Positions 1 to 7,921 of a DNA stretch of 64,000 nucleotides are shown piece by piece. The DNA lies in the NCBI RefSeq assembly GCF_900104945.1, contig NZ_LT629736.1:1674001-1738000 (forward strand), written 5' to 3'. The notes beneath the pieces are model-generated. The model was not told where the DNA came from, made no database searches, and was given only the letters and a program-made list of their open reading frames with translations. Made by a program: the position numbers and the translations under genes. Every line of letters begins with the position of its first letter. Position 1 is the stretch's first letter. Source of the stretch: Halopseudomonas xinjiangensis. GTDB taxonomy: Bacteria > Pseudomonadota > Gammaproteobacteria > Pseudomonadales > Pseudomonadaceae.

Positions 1-875
1 CCCTGTCTGGCAAATGATTCATATATCGATATCGACTGTGCGTCTTGAACCCACTGAAACAACGCGCAGCCGCCGGAGGGAGCAAGGCTGCGGGAAGCCA
101 GCAGCTCGGCAAGCCGCCAACCGTCCGCGGCGAGGCGATCACGCCAGTCCTGCTGGGTTTTCCAGTCAGCCAGAGCGAGCCGTCCGACATAGCGAGTCGG
201 CCCACTGACAGCCCAAGGTCCCAGTCGCTCCGCCAGTGCCTGACAAACCGGCTCGGCGGCCAACACGAAACCCAGCCGTGCACCACCCAGCCCGAAGAAC
301 TTGCCGAGCGAACGCAGCACGACCAGACCGGGAAGATGTGAATGCGCGGCGAGGCTATCCTCGGGGGTCGGGTCGACGAACGCCTCGTCGACAATCAGGC
401 AGCCACCGCGACTCGCCAGGTGCGAGTGCCAGCCGAGAAGCTGATCGACAGTGAACCGTCGTCCGGTCGGATTGTTGGGGTTGATCACAACAAGCACGTC
501 GATATGCGCGAGACCGGCTTCCACATCCTCTGAACCCAGCGACTCGGGCACGAAGCCGGCCGCTTCCCAGGCATGGCGATGCTCGGCATAACATGGCTCG
601 ACGATGCCCACGCGCTTACCGGCGAACAGAGAAGGCAATGCCTGTATCGCCGCCTGCGATCCCGCCACGGCAAGGATCGAGTCGGCGCCGTAATACGCTC
701 GCGCGGCCTCTTCGAGGCCGTCCTGCTCTTCCGGCAGACGCTGCCATACCTCAGCGGGAACGGGCTGCAGCGGCCAGGCATAGGGGGCCAGGCCGGTCGA
801 CAGATCCAGCCAGTCCGCAAGCGGGATCCCGTACTGCGCGGCCGCTTGGCGCAAACGCCCACCGTGTTCAAGCAA
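1..875 (-). CDS. cobC: Threonine-phosphate decarboxylase CobC (3' end cut by window)
   Basis: PLP enzyme of the aminotransferase class I/II fold. It decarboxylates L-threonine phosphate to (R)-1-amino-2-propanol phosphate, the linker of the cobalamin nucleotide loop. The frame is open from a TTG start at 875, giving [16 protein letters not shown], the typical Pseudomonas CobC N-terminus. It runs without a stop to base 1, about 291 codons against a usual ~330, so some 40 C-terminal residues lie outside. Visible motifs are NPNNPTG (about 132-138), VDEAF (162-166) and [15 protein letters not shown] with the probable PLP lysine at 192. The start lies inside the end of cobD (8 nt overlap), so translation is probably coupled. 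It is the last visible gene of the riboswitch-led B12 operon. Confidence 0.9.
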
Positions 876-1773
876 GGCTTAATCCCCAGATGAGGAAAAT
901 GACTATCACCCAGAGCGTGACGCTGCGGCGTACCAGCCGAAGGGCATGCAGGATGTCTACCGCGCCGGGCGCAGGTCCCGCGCCGAGCAAGGGTCGCTTA
1001 TGGATCTCACCTTCGTAGCTGGCTGGTCCGCCGAGGCTGACGCCGAGCGCACCTGCCCCGGCCGCCATGACCGGGCCGGCGTTGGGACTATCCCAGAGCG
1101 GAGCTTGCTGCGCCCAACAGGCAAGCGCCAGCCGCGTCTTGCCGCACAATGCATAGGTCAGCGCGACAAGGCGGGCCGGAATGAAGTTGAGGAAGTCGTC
1201 GATCTTCGCCGCAGCCCAGCCGAAGTGCAGGAAGCGCTCGTTCCGATAGCCCCACATTGCGTCCAGCGTATTGGCCAGCCGGTACAGAACCACACCAGGC
1301 CCGCCGAAGATGGCAAACCAGAACAGCGCAGCGAACACGGCATCGCTGCCATTTTCCAGAACCGACTCGGTGGTGGCGCGGGCGATACCGGTCTCATCCA
1401 GGGCGTTGGTGTTACGGCTGACTATGCGTCCGACCCGTTCCCTTGCGGCGTCCACGTTGCCCGCTCCCAGAGCCCGCACGATCGGCATCGCGTGTTCGGA
1501 GAGACTGCGCAGGCCGATGGCAAGATAGAGCAGTATCATTTCCGCGAGCCAGCCAATGCCGGGCAGATTCGAGATCAGCCAGGCCGCGAAGGTGAGCGGC
1601 AACACCGCCAGTGACCATGCCAGGAGTCCCTTGTTGCGCCGCGGCTGCCCCCGGTTGAACCGCAGCTCGATGGCCGAAGCCAGCCAGCCGAACCCCACCA
1701 GCGGATGCCAGCGACGCGGCTCGCCCAGTACCTGGTCGAGCAGGATGGCAGCCAGCATGAGCGGCGCCATCAT
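868..1773 (-). CDS. cobD: Adenosylcobinamide-phosphate synthase CobD/CbiB
   Basis: Integral inner-membrane protein of 301 aa that attaches the aminopropanol (phosphate) arm to adenosylcobyric acid, giving adenosylcobinamide (phosphate). It starts [19 protein letters not shown], and the DQVLGEP...WHPLVGFG pattern with several hydrophobic segments is characteristic of CbiB. It uses the aminopropanol phosphate made by CobC, whose gene follows with an 8 nt overlap. Its ATG overlaps the stop of the upstream btuF-like gene (ATGA), so it belongs to the same coupled operon. The length is normal for the family. No oddity seen. Confidence 0.93.
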
Positions 1774-2567
1774 CGCATGCGCTCCGCACAGTTACGGATG
1801 AGACGCTGCAATTCATCGAGCCCCAGCGTCAGCGCCGAGATACCCGGCTGAAGAATGTCCGGAGACTTGATTTCGTGTACGTCACCACTACGAATCGCCG
1901 GGATCGATCGCCAACCATCGCGCTCGGCCAGCTGCTCCGGGCGGAAACGCTTGCCGCACCAGGAGCCGATGATCAGATCCGGCGCGCGGCGAACCACCTC
2001 CATTGGTTCGGTGATATAGCGGTCACGCGCCCGGGGGTGATGGCTGAGATCGGCGAAGCAGTCCTCACCCCCGGCTATGTCGATCAGCTCGCTGACCCAG
2101 CGGATGCCCGAGATCAACGGATCATTCCACTCCTCGAAGTACACCCGTGGTCTGCAGGGCAAGGATGAAGACTGCTGACGAACCTGATCGAGGCGCTCCT
2201 GCAGCCCCTGAACCAGCTCAGCGGCCCGCTCACCCGCGCCGACGAGCGCACCCAGCGTTTCGATCATGCGCAGGATGCCGGCTATGTCGCGCTGGTTGAA
2301 CAGATGCACTTCCAGCCCTTCCCGGGCCAGGTCGGCAGCGATACCGGCTTGCAGGTCGCAATATCCCAGGACCAGATCAGGCTTGAGCTCGATAATCCGC
2401 TCGGTCTTGGCACTGGTGAAGGCGGAGACCTTGGGTTTTTCCCGGCGCGCCTGTGGCGGATGAACGGTAAAGCCGGAAATACCGGCAATGCGATCCTGCT
2501 CGCCAAGCCGGTATAGCACTTCGCAGGTTTCGGTAGACAGACAGACGATGCGCTGTGGCCCCTTCAC
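1770..2567 (-). CDS. BtuF-like cobalamin-binding protein without signal peptide
   Basis: 265 aa, BtuF/FepB-type (helical backbone metal receptor) fold. It has the opening [16 protein letters not shown], the central [11 protein letters not shown] and the later SWCGKRF segments seen in proteobacterial cobalamin-binding proteins. Classical BtuF is periplasmic and feeds BtuCD. Here the protein begins [13 protein letters not shown] directly from a GTG, and the stop of bluB lies 3 nt upstream, so there is no room for a signal peptide. No btuC or btuD lies in the window. A cytoplasmic corrinoid-binding or carrier role is therefore possible, but this is inference. Alternatively it is exported by an unrecognised route. 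It lies between bluB and cobD in the B12 operon and overlaps cobD by 4 nt. Confidence 0.8.
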
Positions 2568-2569
2568 GA

Positions 2570-3214
2570 CTAATGACCCCAGCCATCGGTAAAGACCAGT
2601 TCGGACAGCGGTTGCGCCTGGGCCCAGCCCTCTTCTTCCAGCATTGGTCGCGGATAGAATTCCCGCACCGGTCCCAGACAGAGTATTGCCACCGGACGCG
2701 CGCCCTCCGGCATGCTAAGCAACGCGGCGAGCGCATCGGGATCGAAAAGCGATACCCAGCCCATGCCGAGTCCTTCGGCGCGAGCTGCCAGCCACATGTT
2801 CTGGATGGCGCAGGCCAGCGATGCCAGATCCATCTCAGGCAAGGTGCGGCGGCCGAACAGATGCTTCTCGCGCCCATCCGGCAGCGCAGCGACCAGCAGT
2901 TCGGCGCAGTCGAGGATGCCTTCGACCTTGAGTTGCATGAACTCATCGCTGCGCTGACCCAGCGCTTCGGCGGTAAGACGGCGCTCGGCCTCGACCAGGC
3001 GATGAAGCTCGGCGCGGATATCCTGGCGAGTGATTCTCACGAAGCGCCACGGCTGCATCAGCCCGACGCTGGGCGCGTTATGGGCTGCCTGCAGCAGCCG
3101 CGCAAGCAGCTCCGGCTCGACGCTGCCGCCACTGAAGTGGCGCATGTCGCGGCGTTCGCGAATAGCCCGGTACACCCCTGCCCGCTCGGTGTCGGTGAAG
3201 GCCTGATCGTTCAT
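2570..3214 (-). CDS. bluB: 5,6-dimethylbenzimidazole synthase BluB
   Basis: 214 aa nitroreductase-fold enzyme that cannibalises reduced FMN with O2 to make 5,6-dimethylbenzimidazole, the lower ligand of B12. It carries ERRDMRHF near the N-terminus, APSVGLMQPWRF, and RTLPEMDLASLACAIQNMWL followed by GLGMGWVS, all typical of BluB rather than general nitroreductases. The reading frame is open further upstream, but I chose ATG 3214 because it overlaps the cobB stop as ATGA and gives the usual BluB N-terminus. It ends 2 nt before the GTG of the btuF-like gene. Its oxygen dependence fits an aerobic B12 pathway. Confidence 0.92.
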   Translation of the reverse strand: MNDQAFTDTERAGVYRAIRERRDMRHFSGGSVEPELLARLLQAAHNAPSVGLMQPWRFVRITRQDIRAELHRLVEAERRLTAEALGQRSDEFMQLKVEGILDCAELLVAALPDGREKHLFGRRTLPEMDLASLACAIQNMWLAARAEGLGMGWVSLFDPDALAALLSMPEGARPVAILCLGPVREFYPRPMLEEEGWAQAQPLSELVFTDGWGH

Positions 3215-4503
3215 GGCTGAAACAATGCTGCCACGGCGCGCGGATTGCCGGGAAAATACAGATGGATATACGACGCGGTCAGCCGACCCAACCGATAGAC
3301 CGCCTCGGCCGTGCGCTTGTAGTTCGGGCATTCGCCGCGCACCAGAACGGGATGCTCGCACTGCAGCGCAGAGTGATGGAAGGTGTGGCCGCGCAGAGAA
3401 CCTTCAGGCAGCGACACCTCCTGCAAGGCCAGCGCAGCCAGGCGCTTTTGCATGGTGACCTGCCCCGAAACCAGCCCGACCATTTCAGCCGTCGTGCCCT
3501 CGGCATCGGTCAACGTTTCGCATAGATAGAGCATGCCGCCGCATTCGGCGAGGATCGGCTTGCCGGACTGCTGGTGCTGGCGGATCGCCGATTGCATCGC
3601 GCGGTTGGACGCCAACTGTTCGAGGTGCAATTCGGGATATCCCCCCGGCAGATACAGACTCTCAACATCTGGCAGCGCCGAATCGCGCAGCGGCGAGAAA
3701 AACACCAACTCGGCACCGAGCGATTCGAGCACGTCGAGGTTGGCCTGGTAGATAAAAGCGAACGCAGGATCACGCGCGACACCTATGCGCACGCCGGCCA
3801 GCAGCCGATCCCGAGCGGCTTGCGGCGCGCCCTCAAAGTCGACCGGTGCGGGCAGCGCCGAACCGGCACTGGCCTCCAGCGCGTCGGCCGCGGCATCCAA
3901 CCGCGCGTCGAGGTCGAGCAGCTCGTCCGCCTGCACCAGACCCAGATGCCGGCTGGGCAGCGCTACGTCCGGACTGCGTGGTAGCGCGCCATACCAATGC
4001 ATGCCCGCCGGCAGGCTGTCACGAAGGATCTTGCCATGACGGGCGCTGCCAACCTTGTTACCGAGCACACCGGAGAATGGCAAGTGCAACTGGAAATGCG
4101 CCAGCCCGTGAGCCATGGCGCCGAAGGTCTGCGCCATCCCCGACCCGTCGATGACGCCCATCACCGGCACGCCGAAGTGCCGGGCGAGATCCGCCGCGGA
4201 AGGATTGCCGTCGAACAGTCCCATGACGCCTTCGATCAGGATGAGATCCGCCTCGCCTGCCGCTCCCCACAGCATGCGCCGGCTCTCCTGCTCTCCGATC
4301 ATCCACAAATCGAGCTGGTAGACCGGCTGGCCGCTGGCTCGCTGCAGGATCATCGGATCGAGAAAGTCCGGGCCGCACTTGAACACCCGGACGCGACGCC
4401 CTTGCCTGTGGTGCAAGCGCGCCAGTGCCGCGGTGACGGTGGTCTTGCCCTGCCCCGAAGCAGGCGCGGCGATCAGAAGCGCCGGGCACTGCCGTGTGGT
4501 CAA
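3211..4503 (-). CDS. cobB: Cobyrinate/hydrogenobyrinate a,c-diamide synthase CobB
   Basis: 430 aa ATP-dependent glutamine amidotransferase that amidates the a and c side chains of (hydrogeno)byrinic acid. The N-terminal P-loop APASGQGKTTVTAALARLH and the CGPDFLDP motif form the dethiobiotin-synthetase-like domain. The C-terminal class I glutaminase domain has the nucleophile in AECGGMLYLCE and a late histidine in SYIHLYFPGNP. The start is TTG at 4503, overlapping the cobO stop; it gives MTTRQCPALLIAAPASGQGK, which leaves the P-loop at the usual distance from the N-terminus. It is coupled to bluB downstream by an ATGA overlap. Confidence 0.93.
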   Translation of the reverse strand: MTTRQCPALLIAAPASGQGKTTVTAALARLHHRQGRRVRVFKCGPDFLDPMILQRASGQPVYQLDLWMIGEQESRRMLWGAAGEADLILIEGVMGLFDGNPSAADLARHFGVPVMGVIDGSGMAQTFGAMAHGLAHFQLHLPFSGVLGNKVGSARHGKILRDSLPAGMHWYGALPRSPDVALPSRHLGLVQADELLDLDARLDAAADALEASAGSALPAPVDFEGAPQAARDRLLAGVRIGVARDPAFAFIYQANLDVLESLGAELVFFSPLRDSALPDVESLYLPGGYPELHLEQLASNRAMQSAIRQHQQSGKPILAECGGMLYLCETLTDAEGTTAEMVGLVSGQVTMQKRLAALALQEVSLPEGSLRGHTFHHSALQCEHPVLVRGECPNYKRTAEAVYRLGRLTASYIHLYFPGNPRAVAALFQP

Positions 4504-5108
4504 AACTCGACCCCCTTCTGCGCCTTGATCCCGGACTTGAAGGCGTGCTTGACCACGCCCATCTCAGTCACCGTATCGGCGGCCTCGATCAGCTCGGGCG
4601 GCGCACCACGGCCAGTCACGACAACATGCTGATGCATGGGCCGCGAACCGATGTCGCGCAGTACCTGTTCGATTTCGAGATAACGATATTTCAAAGCGAT
4701 GTTCAGCTCGTCGAGCACTACCAGGGCGATCTCCGGATCGCTCATCAACTCGACCGCCACGTCCCAGGCTGCACGAGCCTTGGCCATGTCGTCCTGACGA
4801 TCCTGCGTTTCCCAGGTGAAGCCGGCGCCCATGACGTGATAGCGCACTTCGTCAGGGAAGCGACGGAAGAAGGTTTCCTCACCGGTACTGCGTGCGCCCT
4901 TGATGAACTGGACGATGCCCACCTTGTAACCGTGGCCGAGCGAGCGAGCCGCCATGCCGAACGCGGAGCTGCTCTTGCCCTTGCCGTTGCCGGTCAACAC
5001 CAGGAGCAGCCCGTGTTCATCCTGGGCCTGGGCGATCTTCTCGTCCATTACCGCCTTCTTGCGCTGCATGCGCAGGCGGTGACGTTCATCGCGTTCGGCG
5101 TCGCTCAC
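4500..5108 (-). CDS. cobO: Cob(I)yrinic acid a,c-diamide adenosyltransferase CobO/BtuR
   Basis: 202 aa CobA/CobO/BtuR-type corrinoid adenosyltransferase that transfers the adenosyl group of ATP to Co(I) corrinoids. The P-loop variant TGNGKGKSSSAFG (about 39-51), the VQFIKGA segment, ALVVLDELNIALKY and VVVTGRGAPPEL are all family signatures. The GTG start at 5108 overlaps the btuM stop (GTGA). The TTG of cobB lies inside its own stop region. It serves both de novo synthesis and adenosylation of cobalamin imported by the BtuB/BtuM pair encoded immediately upstream. Confidence 0.95.
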   Translation of the reverse strand: MSDAERDERHRLRMQRKKAVMDEKIAQAQDEHGLLLVLTGNGKGKSSSAFGMAARSLGHGYKVGIVQFIKGARSTGEETFFRRFPDEVRYHVMGAGFTWETQDRQDDMAKARAAWDVAVELMSDPEIALVVLDELNIALKYRYLEIEQVLRDIGSRPMHQHVVVTGRGAPPELIEAADTVTEMGVVKHAFKSGIKAQKGVEF

Positions 5109-5680
5109 GCGTGACGGTCCTGCCCGTTGCGCAGCGGCGCCGCGGCGTGAAGCGCTGCATACAACAGCGCAGCGACAGCCACGTAGAAGGCCATGGTCGC
5201 CAGATACTGCGGATAGTAGGTCGCGATCCGCTCAAGCATGCCAACGAACGTCGGCTCGGCGTAACGGCCAGAGAAGAAGTAGAACCCGCCGCTGGAGAAC
5301 AACTGGCATACCAGCGCGCTGACCGACATCACACCGGCAAGAACCGGCAGGCTACGCAGGCTGTCCTGGTGCCAGCGAGCGTACAGACGACCGCCAAACC
5401 ACAGCGCGGCGTAGGCGGGAACCAGCATCCAGTAGGCTACGGTCATGCAGTGATGACCGGCGTTTGTCCAGCCAACACTCATGACGTCCATGAAGGTCGC
5501 CTGCAGAAACAGCGCAGGGAAGATCCAGCGCGGACGCAGCAACACGCCAGCGAGGAAAAACACCGCCCACGAGGCGCTGCGCAGGTTCACCAGATCGAAA
5601 TGGCTCCCCCGTGTCATCGCCATCAACAGGACCAGGGCGACGCCCACGATCACCTGGCTACGTTTGGATAGTTCGAGCAT
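5105..5680 (-). CDS. btuM: BtuM-type cobalamin transporter (solitary ECF S-component family)
   Basis: 191 aa, about six membrane segments. The MTRGSHFDLVNLRSASWAVF opening and the WTNAGHHCMTVAYW segment match the BtuM family as I recall it from Thiobacillus denitrificans, where one cysteine (Cys80 there) coordinates the cobalt of B12. The corresponding Cys here is residue 78. BtuM proteins are S-components that can work without an ECF ATPase module, and no such module is visible here. The ATG at 5680 has an AAGGGGAA ribosome site. It sits between btuB (38 nt gap) and cobO (4 nt overlap), the position expected for the inner-membrane step after BtuB. An alternative is an uncharacterised cobalt or corrinoid permease. 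Confidence 0.78.
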   Translation of the reverse strand: MLELSKRSQVIVGVALVLLMAMTRGSHFDLVNLRSASWAVFFLAGVLLRPRWIFPALFLQATFMDVMSVGWTNAGHHCMTVAYWMLVPAYAALWFGGRLYARWHQDSLRSLPVLAGVMSVSALVCQLFSSGGFYFFSGRYAEPTFVGMLERIATYYPQYLATMAFYVAVAALLYAALHAAAPLRNGQDRHA

Positions 5681-5718: not shown

Positions 5719-7539
5719 TCAAATCGGTTGGTAGCGCAAGGTCAGATAACCGGCCCGGCCCGGCTGCTGATAGGTACGGGCGGTTTCATAATCGGTATCG
5801 AACAGGTTGGTCACACTGACCTGTACCCGCCAAGCATGGCTGAACCAGTACTGGGCGCGTAGATCGACTGTATTGTAGCCAGACAACTCGTTGGTGTTCT
5901 GGGTATTGTCCCAACGGCGCCCTTCGGCATGCACGCTGGCGCCGACGCCAACCGAGCCGAAGCGGCGATCGACGTCAAGATTGAACAACTGTTCTGCCCG
6001 GCGTGGCAACAGCTCACCCTGGTTGGCGCGACTGGAACGGTTCGCCGGGTCCTGCAGAGTCAGATTGGTGCGCCAGTCCCAGCTCAGCCACTGGCTGCCC
6101 AGACCCATCTCGACACCCCGGATGACTGCCTTGTCGATGTTGTACGCGCGCAGCCCGTCTCCTTGGTTGAAGTAGGCAATCAGATCATCGATCTCGTTGT
6201 GGAATACGGCTACCGACCAGTCCCCCCAGCCATGCTCGCCGTTCAGGCCTGCCTCGATATTCTTCGATGTCTCGTCAGTGATATCGGGGTTGCCGTAAAA
6301 CGGATGGTACAGCTGGTTGAAGGTCGGAGCCTTGTAGGCAGTACCGTAGCTGAGGGTGGCCTGTATCGCCTGGCTGAGCGCGAAACCGTAGCCGACGCTA
6401 CCTGTGTTGTGCCGACCGTGTGCTTCGTTATCGTCACTGCGAAGGCCGAGCTGCCAGGAATGGCGACCGAAGTCGGCAAGATACTGAGCATAGATGCCAT
6501 GGTTGTCGCGGCTGTCTTCACGAAAATCCGTGGTGCCGTTGACCGAATCGTCGAGGTAGTCGTAGCCCAGCGTCAGTAGCTGATCCTTGGCGATCTCCAC
6601 GTCGTTCTGCCAACCGAAACTGTCCCGACGGGTATCGATCCGCGTATCGAATACGCTGCCGTTGAAGGTGTCGAGCTTGTCTTCGCTGCGCCCCGCCTGA
6701 ATGGTCATCCGCCATGGATCGATCGGCGAAAATGCTGCCCGGGCACCGTAGGTCTTGAGCACATTGTCCGCGTTGGCCTTACGTCCGGAGTCGAAATCGT
6801 TATGCGAGTGCACTTCGGTCACGTAGCCGTCCAGTTCCAGGCCGTTATCGAATCGATAACCGCCGTTGAGATTCGCTGCCAGCTCGCGGTAGCCGTCATG
6901 GTCCGGCTCGGGCGAAGGCGCACCGGGACGCGCGTCTATCCCACGCGTATCCAGGCTGCTGATACCCAGGTTGTACCAGGCATTGCCATGCCCGCCCGAT
7001 ACGCCGGCGCTGCCAGCGTGATGGTTGCGGCTGCCGACAGTGACCGACGCGTACGGATTGACGCCATCCTGCTCGCCGCGCCGGGTGAAGATCTGTATGA
7101 CGCCACCTATAGCCTCGGAGCCGTACAGACTGGAGCGAGGCCCGCGTACAACTTCAATGCGCTCGATCAGCTCCACCGGCAGGTTCTGCCAGGCCGCGTC
7201 GCCGGTCGTCGCCGACCCCGTGCGGACGCCGTCGATCAGCACCAGCACGTGATTGCTGTTGCTGCCACGAATGCTCACCGTGGTGTTCTTGCCGGGGCCT
7301 CCGGTGTTGGTCAGGCTGATGCCCGGTACCCGGCGCAGCAGATCAGGCACGCTTGTCGCCTGCAAACGCTCGATTTCATAACGACCTATGACACTGGTGG
7401 CGGCGATGCCGGGCGTACTGCTCTGAGTGGTCCGGGTGGCGGTGACCACCTGATCGTCGAGACGATAGGGGTTTGCCAGAGACAAGCTGGAAGTACTGAC
7501 GATGGCCACGGCCACCGAAGCGGAAAGAAAGGTTTTCAT
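5719..7539 (-). CDS. btuB: TonB-dependent vitamin B12 receptor BtuB
   Basis: 606 aa outer-membrane receptor. Signal peptide MKTFLSASVAVAIVSTSSLSLA, then a TonB-box-like LDDQVVTATR. A plug domain follows, with VPDLLRRVPGISL, VSIRGSNSNHVLVLIDGVR and EVVRGPRSSLYGSEAIGGVI. A 22-strand-type barrel ends in YLTLRYQPI with a terminal aromatic-type strand. The small size (~600 aa) and the riboswitch upstream favour BtuB over siderophore receptors. The frame is open 31 codons further upstream, but ATG 7539 starts a canonical signal peptide, so it was chosen. It is the first gene of the B12 operon and is expected to be off when cobalamin is abundant. Confidence 0.93.
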   Translation of the reverse strand: MKTFLSASVAVAIVSTSSLSLANPYRLDDQVVTATRTTQSSTPGIAATSVIGRYEIERLQATSVPDLLRRVPGISLTNTGGPGKNTTVSIRGSNSNHVLVLIDGVRTGSATTGDAAWQNLPVELIERIEVVRGPRSSLYGSEAIGGVIQIFTRRGEQDGVNPYASVTVGSRNHHAGSAGVSGGHGNAWYNLGISSLDTRGIDARPGAPSPEPDHDGYRELAANLNGGYRFDNGLELDGYVTEVHSHNDFDSGRKANADNVLKTYGARAAFSPIDPWRMTIQAGRSEDKLDTFNGSVFDTRIDTRRDSFGWQNDVEIAKDQLLTLGYDYLDDSVNGTTDFREDSRDNHGIYAQYLADFGRHSWQLGLRSDDNEAHGRHNTGSVGYGFALSQAIQATLSYGTAYKAPTFNQLYHPFYGNPDITDETSKNIEAGLNGEHGWGDWSVAVFHNEIDDLIAYFNQGDGLRAYNIDKAVIRGVEMGLGSQWLSWDWRTNLTLQDPANRSSRANQGELLPRRAEQLFNLDVDRRFGSVGVGASVHAEGRRWDNTQNTNELSGYNTVDLRAQYWFSHAWRVQVSVTNLFDTDYETARTYQQPGRAGYLTLRYQPI

Positions 7540-7662
7540 CTGAGTGCGCTGCTCCGTCGTGCCTACCCGCACGACCCTGCTGTTGGTATTGCAGGGCGAG
7601 CAACGCTGGCAGACGGCACGAGAGCCGAACACCCGCAGAAGCCCGCCGCTCTGCTGTGGAAA

Positions 7663-7880
7663 GCGTCAGGCCGGTCTCCGGGCTCACAAGTGAATGATCC
7701 ATCGCGATGGATGATCGATTCGGCGATCGCACCTTCCCATGCCGAGGCACAGTGGTCTGAGCGATCGCTGCCGGCCAAGAGGCTGGCGGCACTTGTATAC
7801 CGTTGCGGGGGCAGCGCCGGGATTGCTCGAAGAGCGCACCGGCTTCCCAGTTTCACCCACCGAATCATTGGCGGGCACCT
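7663..7880 (-). promoter_or_regulatory. Cobalamin riboswitch (B12 element)
   Basis: Read on the minus strand, the leader of btuB contains, in order, GGTGCC (from 7879), TGAAACTGGGAAGCCGGTG, a CCCCCGCAACGGT segment, CCACTGTG...GGGAAGGTGC, and the B12 box AGCCCGGAGACCGGCC at 7684-7669. The last matches the consensus AGYCMGGAGACCKGCC at every position. Order and spacing fit the adenosylcobalamin riboswitch class. The ATG of btuB lies about 125 nt downstream. I see no convincing intrinsic terminator between, so control is more likely at translation initiation. Confidence 0.95.
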
Positions 7881-7892
7881 GAAGCAGGCGCA

Positions 7893-7921
7893 AGGTTAGA
7901 AGTTTTGTAACAACGCGTCAA
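7893..7921 (-). promoter_or_regulatory. Sigma-70-type promoter of the B12 operon
   Basis: On the minus strand, TTGACG (7921-7916) and TAACCT (7898-7893) are separated by 17 bp. Initiation would fall near 7886, just upstream of the first conserved base of the riboswitch. The -10 box is only a moderate match. It is assigned by position and spacing, not by experiment. Confidence 0.6.

Follow-up and report, generated by a model that had tools for sequence, protein, structure and literature searches.

A BtuF-like protein lacking an export signal in a cobalamin operon of Halopseudomonas xinjiangensis: a candidate cytosolic corrinoid carrier

The stretch of DNA analysed here (the window; 64,000 nucleotides of the Halopseudomonas xinjiangensis genome) carries on its minus strand an RF00174 riboswitch followed by genes in the order btuB-btuM-cobO-cobB-bluB-[BtuF-like gene]-cobD-cobC. 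The features are as follows.

7652 to 7897, minus strand: cobalamin riboswitch (RF00174, 89.6 bits) in front of the operon genes
5719 to 7632, minus strand: btuB, TonB-dependent B12 receptor (TIGR01779, 675.5 bits, cut-off 599.7)
5105 to 5680, minus strand: btuM-type B12 importer (relative of 8c7p, 4.6e-47)
4500 to 5108, minus strand: cobO, corrinoid adenosyltransferase (PF02572)
3211 to 4503, minus strand: cobB, a,c-diamide synthase (PF07685/PF01656)
2570 to 3214, minus strand: bluB, DMB synthase (TIGR02476, 247.5 bits)
1770 to 2567, minus strand: BtuF-fold protein, almost certainly cytosolic (265 aa, GTG start)
868 to 1773, minus strand: cobD/cbiB (PF03186), its start overlapping the stop of the BtuF-like gene
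3 to 875, minus strand: cobC-like aminotransferase, continuing past the window edge and named by its place beside cobD and its own sequence

The original prediction described an operon without BtuCD but with BtuM and CobO, and this is what the sequence shows: the importer matches 8c7p, with its Cys78 in register with a Cys of the 8c7p chain, CobO is recognised by PF02572, and the operon contains no BtuCD. The longest open reading frame of bluB, 2570-3361(-), begins with a GTG at 3361 inside cobB; translation more likely starts at the ATG at 3214, whose ATGA overlaps the stop of cobB. Two bases separate the bluB stop (TAG, 2572-2570) from the GTG of the BtuF-like gene, and the distance of 3 nt given originally is reached by counting as far as the G of this GTG. 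At its other end, the BtuF-like gene overlaps with its stop the ATG of cobD (1770-1773). An in-frame stop lies 150 nt upstream of the GTG, and the stretch between them contains no ATG, GTG or TTG, but only three CTG and one ATT. A signal peptide therefore could not be recovered by shifting the start, in line with the earlier statement that the protein has none.

The window protein belongs to PF01497 with 143.1 bits (Pfam cut-off 27.5), and among solved structures it comes closest to chains of E. coli BtuF (9.5e-13). Its score against the NCBIfam BtuF equivalog is 53.6 bits, below the cut-off of 234. An AlphaFold2 model, calculated from an alignment of 77 orthologues (A2, described below), reached a pLDDT of 96.0 and a pTM of 0.93, and its first strand (residues 7-9) is where the protein begins. 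The BtuF fold that had been predicted is found in the model as well, with VIA-align Z scores of 25.8, 25.5 and 25.3 for BtuF matches; the model shares the type III substrate-binding protein (SBP) fold of BtuF, as shown by its matches to 5ysc (Z 25.8, rmsd 3.0, 250 residues aligned) and 1n4a (Z 25.5, rmsd 2.6, 241 aligned). The periplasmic heme-binding proteins RhuT, BhuT, HmuT and IsdE share this fold with equally high scores, and heme SBPs, at Z of about 24 to 26.2 (RhuT 26.2), are tied with BtuF for the best match. As judged from the model, the fold confirms the superfamily of the window protein but cannot choose between heme and B12 as the ligand. The equal fold scores favour the possibility that the protein binds something else, such as heme, a siderophore or an unknown metabolite, its place in a cob operon being secondary; many loci without B12 genes and C-lobe contacts unlike those of BtuF, both described below, point in the same direction. 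This appears rather unlikely given the repeated occurrence of the gene in cob/btu operons of several proteobacterial lineages, the riboswitch control and the N-lobe aromatic triad that is kept. The heme-binding proteins are exported, unlike the window protein, and the genomic context of its family is B12, not heme.

Relatives were collected by a scan of genome contigs, from which the best 80 of 264 were taken together with three plasmid copies; the latter are 59-60% identical to the window protein, and the next plasmid match is at 36%. Nearly all these loci have a start codon a few residues ahead of a conserved 'RIVCLT' core. A non-redundant set of 77 orthologues (A2) formed the basis of the signal, residue and tree counts. 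By a crude rule of hydropathy and charge, applied to N-termini taken from the nearest start, a signal-like N-terminus is present in 0/77 orthologues compared to 19/22 exported BtuFs, and the same crude rule finds one in 77 when starts up to 60 codons away are admitted as well. In the maximum-likelihood tree, a single branch with a support of 100/100 and a length of 2.93 changes per column separates all 77 orthologues from 22 exported BtuFs and three other SBPs of the window's own genome, with long branches among the latter. The orthologues lack a signal peptide, form one clade and have the EEW and SWCG motifs invariant. The comparison of N-termini had been proposed as the check on whether a signal peptide was lost in the window only through an annotation error. 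The signal-bearing orthologues feared were not found by the crude rule, and together with the lack of upstream starts this excludes an annotation error or a mis-called start. The absence of the export signal is, on the sequence evidence, a clade-wide trait, and the window protein is almost certainly located in the cytosol. In the Methylobacterium aquaticum plasmid copy (L016), an in-frame stop stands just ahead of the conserved core, so that the gene may be defective there or begin at a different position. One genome (G255) holds two copies of the cytosolic gene, L142 and L156, on separate contigs.

The binding residues could be compared with those of BtuF. According to Mireku et al. (PMC5269720), the N-lobe of BtuF contacts B12 through Y50, W66 and W85, the C-lobe is turned towards the β side of the corrin, and the W66F variant binds cobinamide as well as the wild type does (30 vs 40 nM). 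The aligned pairs of the window protein and BtuF are F33/Y50, F50/W66, Y69/W85, E146/F162 and L151/F168. Position 33 is F or Y in all 77 orthologues, position 50 is F in all 77, and position 69 is F or Y in 75. Among the six aromatic B12 contacts, the three of the N-lobe are kept as F/Y, F162 and F168 of the C-lobe are replaced by E146 and L151, and the position of W196 is not reliably aligned. Residues E145-E146-W147, R183 and S202-W203-C204-G205 are invariant in the alignment, as is E232 (77/77), and K234 is found in 75/77. Since the N-lobe triad is kept and the C-lobe is changed, the α side looks ready for a corrin and the lobe on the β side looks rebuilt; since F162 and F168 are not kept, the ligand or the binding mode must differ from those of BtuF.

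Cys9 and Cys204 are present in all 77 orthologues, whereas 18 exported BtuFs have S/T or varying residues at these positions. This could indicate a corrinoid-processing protein, in which Cys204 and the acidic/Arg patch of the β lobe would take off or replace the upper axial ligand, by decyanation or dealkylation, or would keep the cobalt in place while it is reduced. The orientation of the corrin in BtuF, with its β side towards the C-lobe (PMC5269720), would suit such a function, and a precedent is given by BtuM, which decyanates through a Cys ligand (PMC6072759). Processing, though the leading alternative to a plain carrier, is nevertheless doubtful, because no cofactor or electron donor was recognised and because the BtuM of the same operon may already decyanate.

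Two glutamates, which we take to be the docking sites of BtuF on BtuC, are E at both positions in 18/18 exported BtuFs, but in the cytosolic clade E occurs in only 19/77 at the first and 10/77 at the second. Passages of PMC5662663 did not confirm the docking role. The window protein has E56 at the first site and M189 at the second, and position 190, next to the second site, is E in 49/77 orthologues. Compared to BtuF, the window protein is alike in its Pfam family, two-lobed fold and N-lobe aromatic triad, and unlike it in the missing export signal, the unconserved docking glutamates, the replaced C-lobe contacts and the equivalog score below the cut-off.

In 21 loci in all, including those of Noviherbaspirillum and Zoogloea, the cytosolic gene is accompanied by one for an exported BtuF. 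Of these, 17 were identified by homology to the exported BtuF of the window's own genome (46 loci examined), and four (L078, L154, L159 and L162) were read from open reading frames between btuB and the ATPase gene; three of the 21 exported proteins fail the crude signal rule. BtuC- and BtuD-type genes are also present in 17 of the 21 loci (L065, L067, L069, L070, L076, L096, L144, L145, L147, L148, L149, L158, L161, L078, L154, L159 and L162), the permease of L078 being identified by eye from its open reading frame. It could be deduced from this coexistence that the cytosolic protein does not replace BtuF but comes in addition to it, whether import is of the BtuM type or of the BtuCDF type. 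A substitute for a missing BtuCDF is thus ruled out, and the lack of BtuCD, correct for the window, does not hold as a defining trait of the family. Membership in the Pfam family and the fold would also be expected of an ordinary transport BtuF that is exported by an unrecognised route; this is highly improbable, as the N-termini of the orthologues begin at the first fold strand, both docking glutamates are relaxed, and a signal-bearing BtuF stands at the same locus in the 21 loci, allowing for the three that fail the crude rule.

The exported BtuF of the own genome has 279 aa and is nearest to V. cholerae BtuF (1e-35). It is encoded in region L163 (C1:2772000-2782000) beside a second BtuB-like receptor and a second cobalamin riboswitch, at 3426-3621(+), and no BtuCD was seen next to it. 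Region L164 (C1:2638000-2648000) contains at 3095-4943(-) a FecCD permease and an ATPase, heme-type by homology, with a PrrF sRNA nearby and no PF01497 gene near the permease and ATPase. The FecCD gene L006 of the same genome was rejected as BtuC because the heme permease 5b57 is closer (1.8e-77) than BtuC (6e-51) and PrrF lies nearby.

In 54 of the 80 named loci, a set biased towards the query, one or more late-assembly or BtuM genes lie within flanks of up to 8 kb, and BluB is found in 41 of the 80. In an even sample of the phylum, the gene is present in 33 of 397 genomes, including the window's own. From this sample, 33 neighbourhoods extending some 5 kb to either side of the gene were examined; they come from 32 genomes, of which one has two copies, and do not include the window. 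Late-assembly or BtuM genes, or BtuB with BtuC, occur in 10 of them, and the other 23 show no B12 gene over the 5 kb at the chosen cut-off; L148 and L159 were added to the B12-linked set under a looser cut-off. A pdxH-like gene adjoins the BtuF-like gene in the lone loci L015, L132, L134 and L141, the last three recognised by eye. The window has a cobalamin riboswitch, as do 8 of the 9 B12-linked loci that were tested, whereas 20 loci selected as lone yielded none. L096 has no riboswitch within the locus, and that of L065 is situated downstream, in front of a different unit. In the lone locus L074, a gene for IcmF (a fused B12-dependent mutase/GTPase, identified by eye from its sequence) lies directly upstream with a one-base overlap, and in L014, also a lone locus, IcmF is encoded in the same gene run; with these two loci alone, IcmF is unsupported as a universal partner. 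A small protein assigned to Cys_rich_CWC and DUF5522, by a Pfam scan of the L083 copy only, is encoded directly downstream of the BtuF-like gene in L049, L057, L066 and L083.

The repressible operon and a soluble binding fold that has no transporter to work with would also fit a cytosolic sensor, buffer or storage protein for B12 that does not serve delivery. This seems improbable: the window protein is a single domain of 265 aa in which a DNA-binding or effector domain is absent, and no conserved regulator-like gene was recognised in the neighbour clusters, most of which were read by eye.

All 33 genomes with the gene encode PF02310 (B12-binding) proteins as well as a PduO-type adenosyltransferase; in G000 and G410, MetH-like frames are the sole PF02310 match above the cut-off, a further point against IcmF as a universal partner. 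CobO is present in 19 of the 33 genomes, BluB above the cut-off in 14, and a BtuB-type receptor at E<=1e-60 in 22. As 14 genomes are without CobO and 19 without BluB above the cut-off, neither is a strict partner, and the place between import, CobO and the CobD/CobC steps that was originally assigned to the protein does not stand as a general role. In the background, MetH is found in 88 of 100 genomes and PduO in 94 of 199 genomes of the phylum sample. Within these 199, PduO occurs in 15/15 genomes with the gene vs 79/184 without it (Fisher 6.9e-6), the 15 having been picked by hand from result lists. The association is suggestive only and is confounded by ancestry, since same-family relatives without the gene often have PduO. 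A physical link was rejected, since only in L079 does PduO lie near the gene, at a distance of 6.3 kb within a shared cob region.

Collectively, the window protein may be a cytosolic corrinoid-binding carrier, to which we give a probability of about 0.5; binding and hand-over are what we infer from the observations above. That the family binds a corrinoid is probable in itself, with the N-lobe contacts kept, a B12 context in 54/80 and 10/33 loci and IcmF in two more. The original idea of an intracellular corrinoid carrier is thus retained in its cytosolic location and likely ligand, but not in its fixed position among CobO and CobD/CobC. Such a carrier would descend from periplasmic binding proteins of the BtuF/heme branch. 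It would have retained the two-lobed clam-shell and the aromatic packing of one face against the α side of the corrin, lost export and the conserved BtuC-docking glutamates, and gained the invariant patch in the β-side lobe (residues 145-147, 183, 202-205, 232 and 234). Cobalamin or cobinamide arriving via BtuM or BtuCDF would be taken up by the carrier and passed in the cytosol to an adenosyltransferase (PduO-type, or CobO where present) and to B12 enzymes.

The carrier reading is supported by the absence of signal-like N-termini (0/77) in a single clade (100/100), the coexistence with BtuCDF in 17 loci, the riboswitch at the operon head in the window and those in 8/9 B12-linked loci, the N-lobe contacts, the relaxed docking glutamates, the presence of PF02310 and PduO in 33/33 genomes, and IcmF, which adjoins the gene or stands in its gene run in L074 and L014. 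However, it is weakened by the 23/33 phylum-sample loci without a B12 gene and the 20 lone loci without a riboswitch. With the gene in 33/397 genomes and MetH in 88/100, most B12 users do without it. Furthermore, heme SBPs fit the fold equally well, the C-lobe contacts are lost, and the PduO link is confounded by ancestry.

A more specific version, unlikely on present sequence evidence, would be a bacterial cytosolic cobalamin escort, a re-used copy of BtuF that receives its corrinoid from either importer type; Cys204 would strip or coordinate the upper ligand, and cob(II)alamin would be delivered to the PduO-type adenosyltransferase or directly to mutases such as IcmF. If this is true, the escort would be a functional counterpart of human MMACHC/MMADHC, which act in cobalamin trafficking and are unrelated in fold to the window protein; the possible common role would be cytosolic hand-over to a PduO-type adenosyltransferase.

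BtuF normally works outside the inner membrane, and we know of no well-known bacterial protein that handles B12 inside the cell. In a search of the open-access literature, neither a cytosolic BtuF-like family of this kind nor a bacterial carrier was described. For the route by which imported or newly made corrinoids arrive at adenosyltransferases and B12-dependent enzymes inside bacteria, the family could offer a concrete, conserved and easily deleted candidate, which occurs in Halopseudomonas and Stutzerimonas among others and for which binding residues are predicted. An orthologue of about 60% identity, WP_017915046.1 of Xanthomonas sacchari, is named 'cobalamin-binding protein' at NCBI, a name without an attached function, and an Ideonella orthologue is annotated 'ABC transporter substrate-binding protein'. 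For this clade, the latter label and any transport reconstruction in which its genes would be counted as BtuF are probably wrong.
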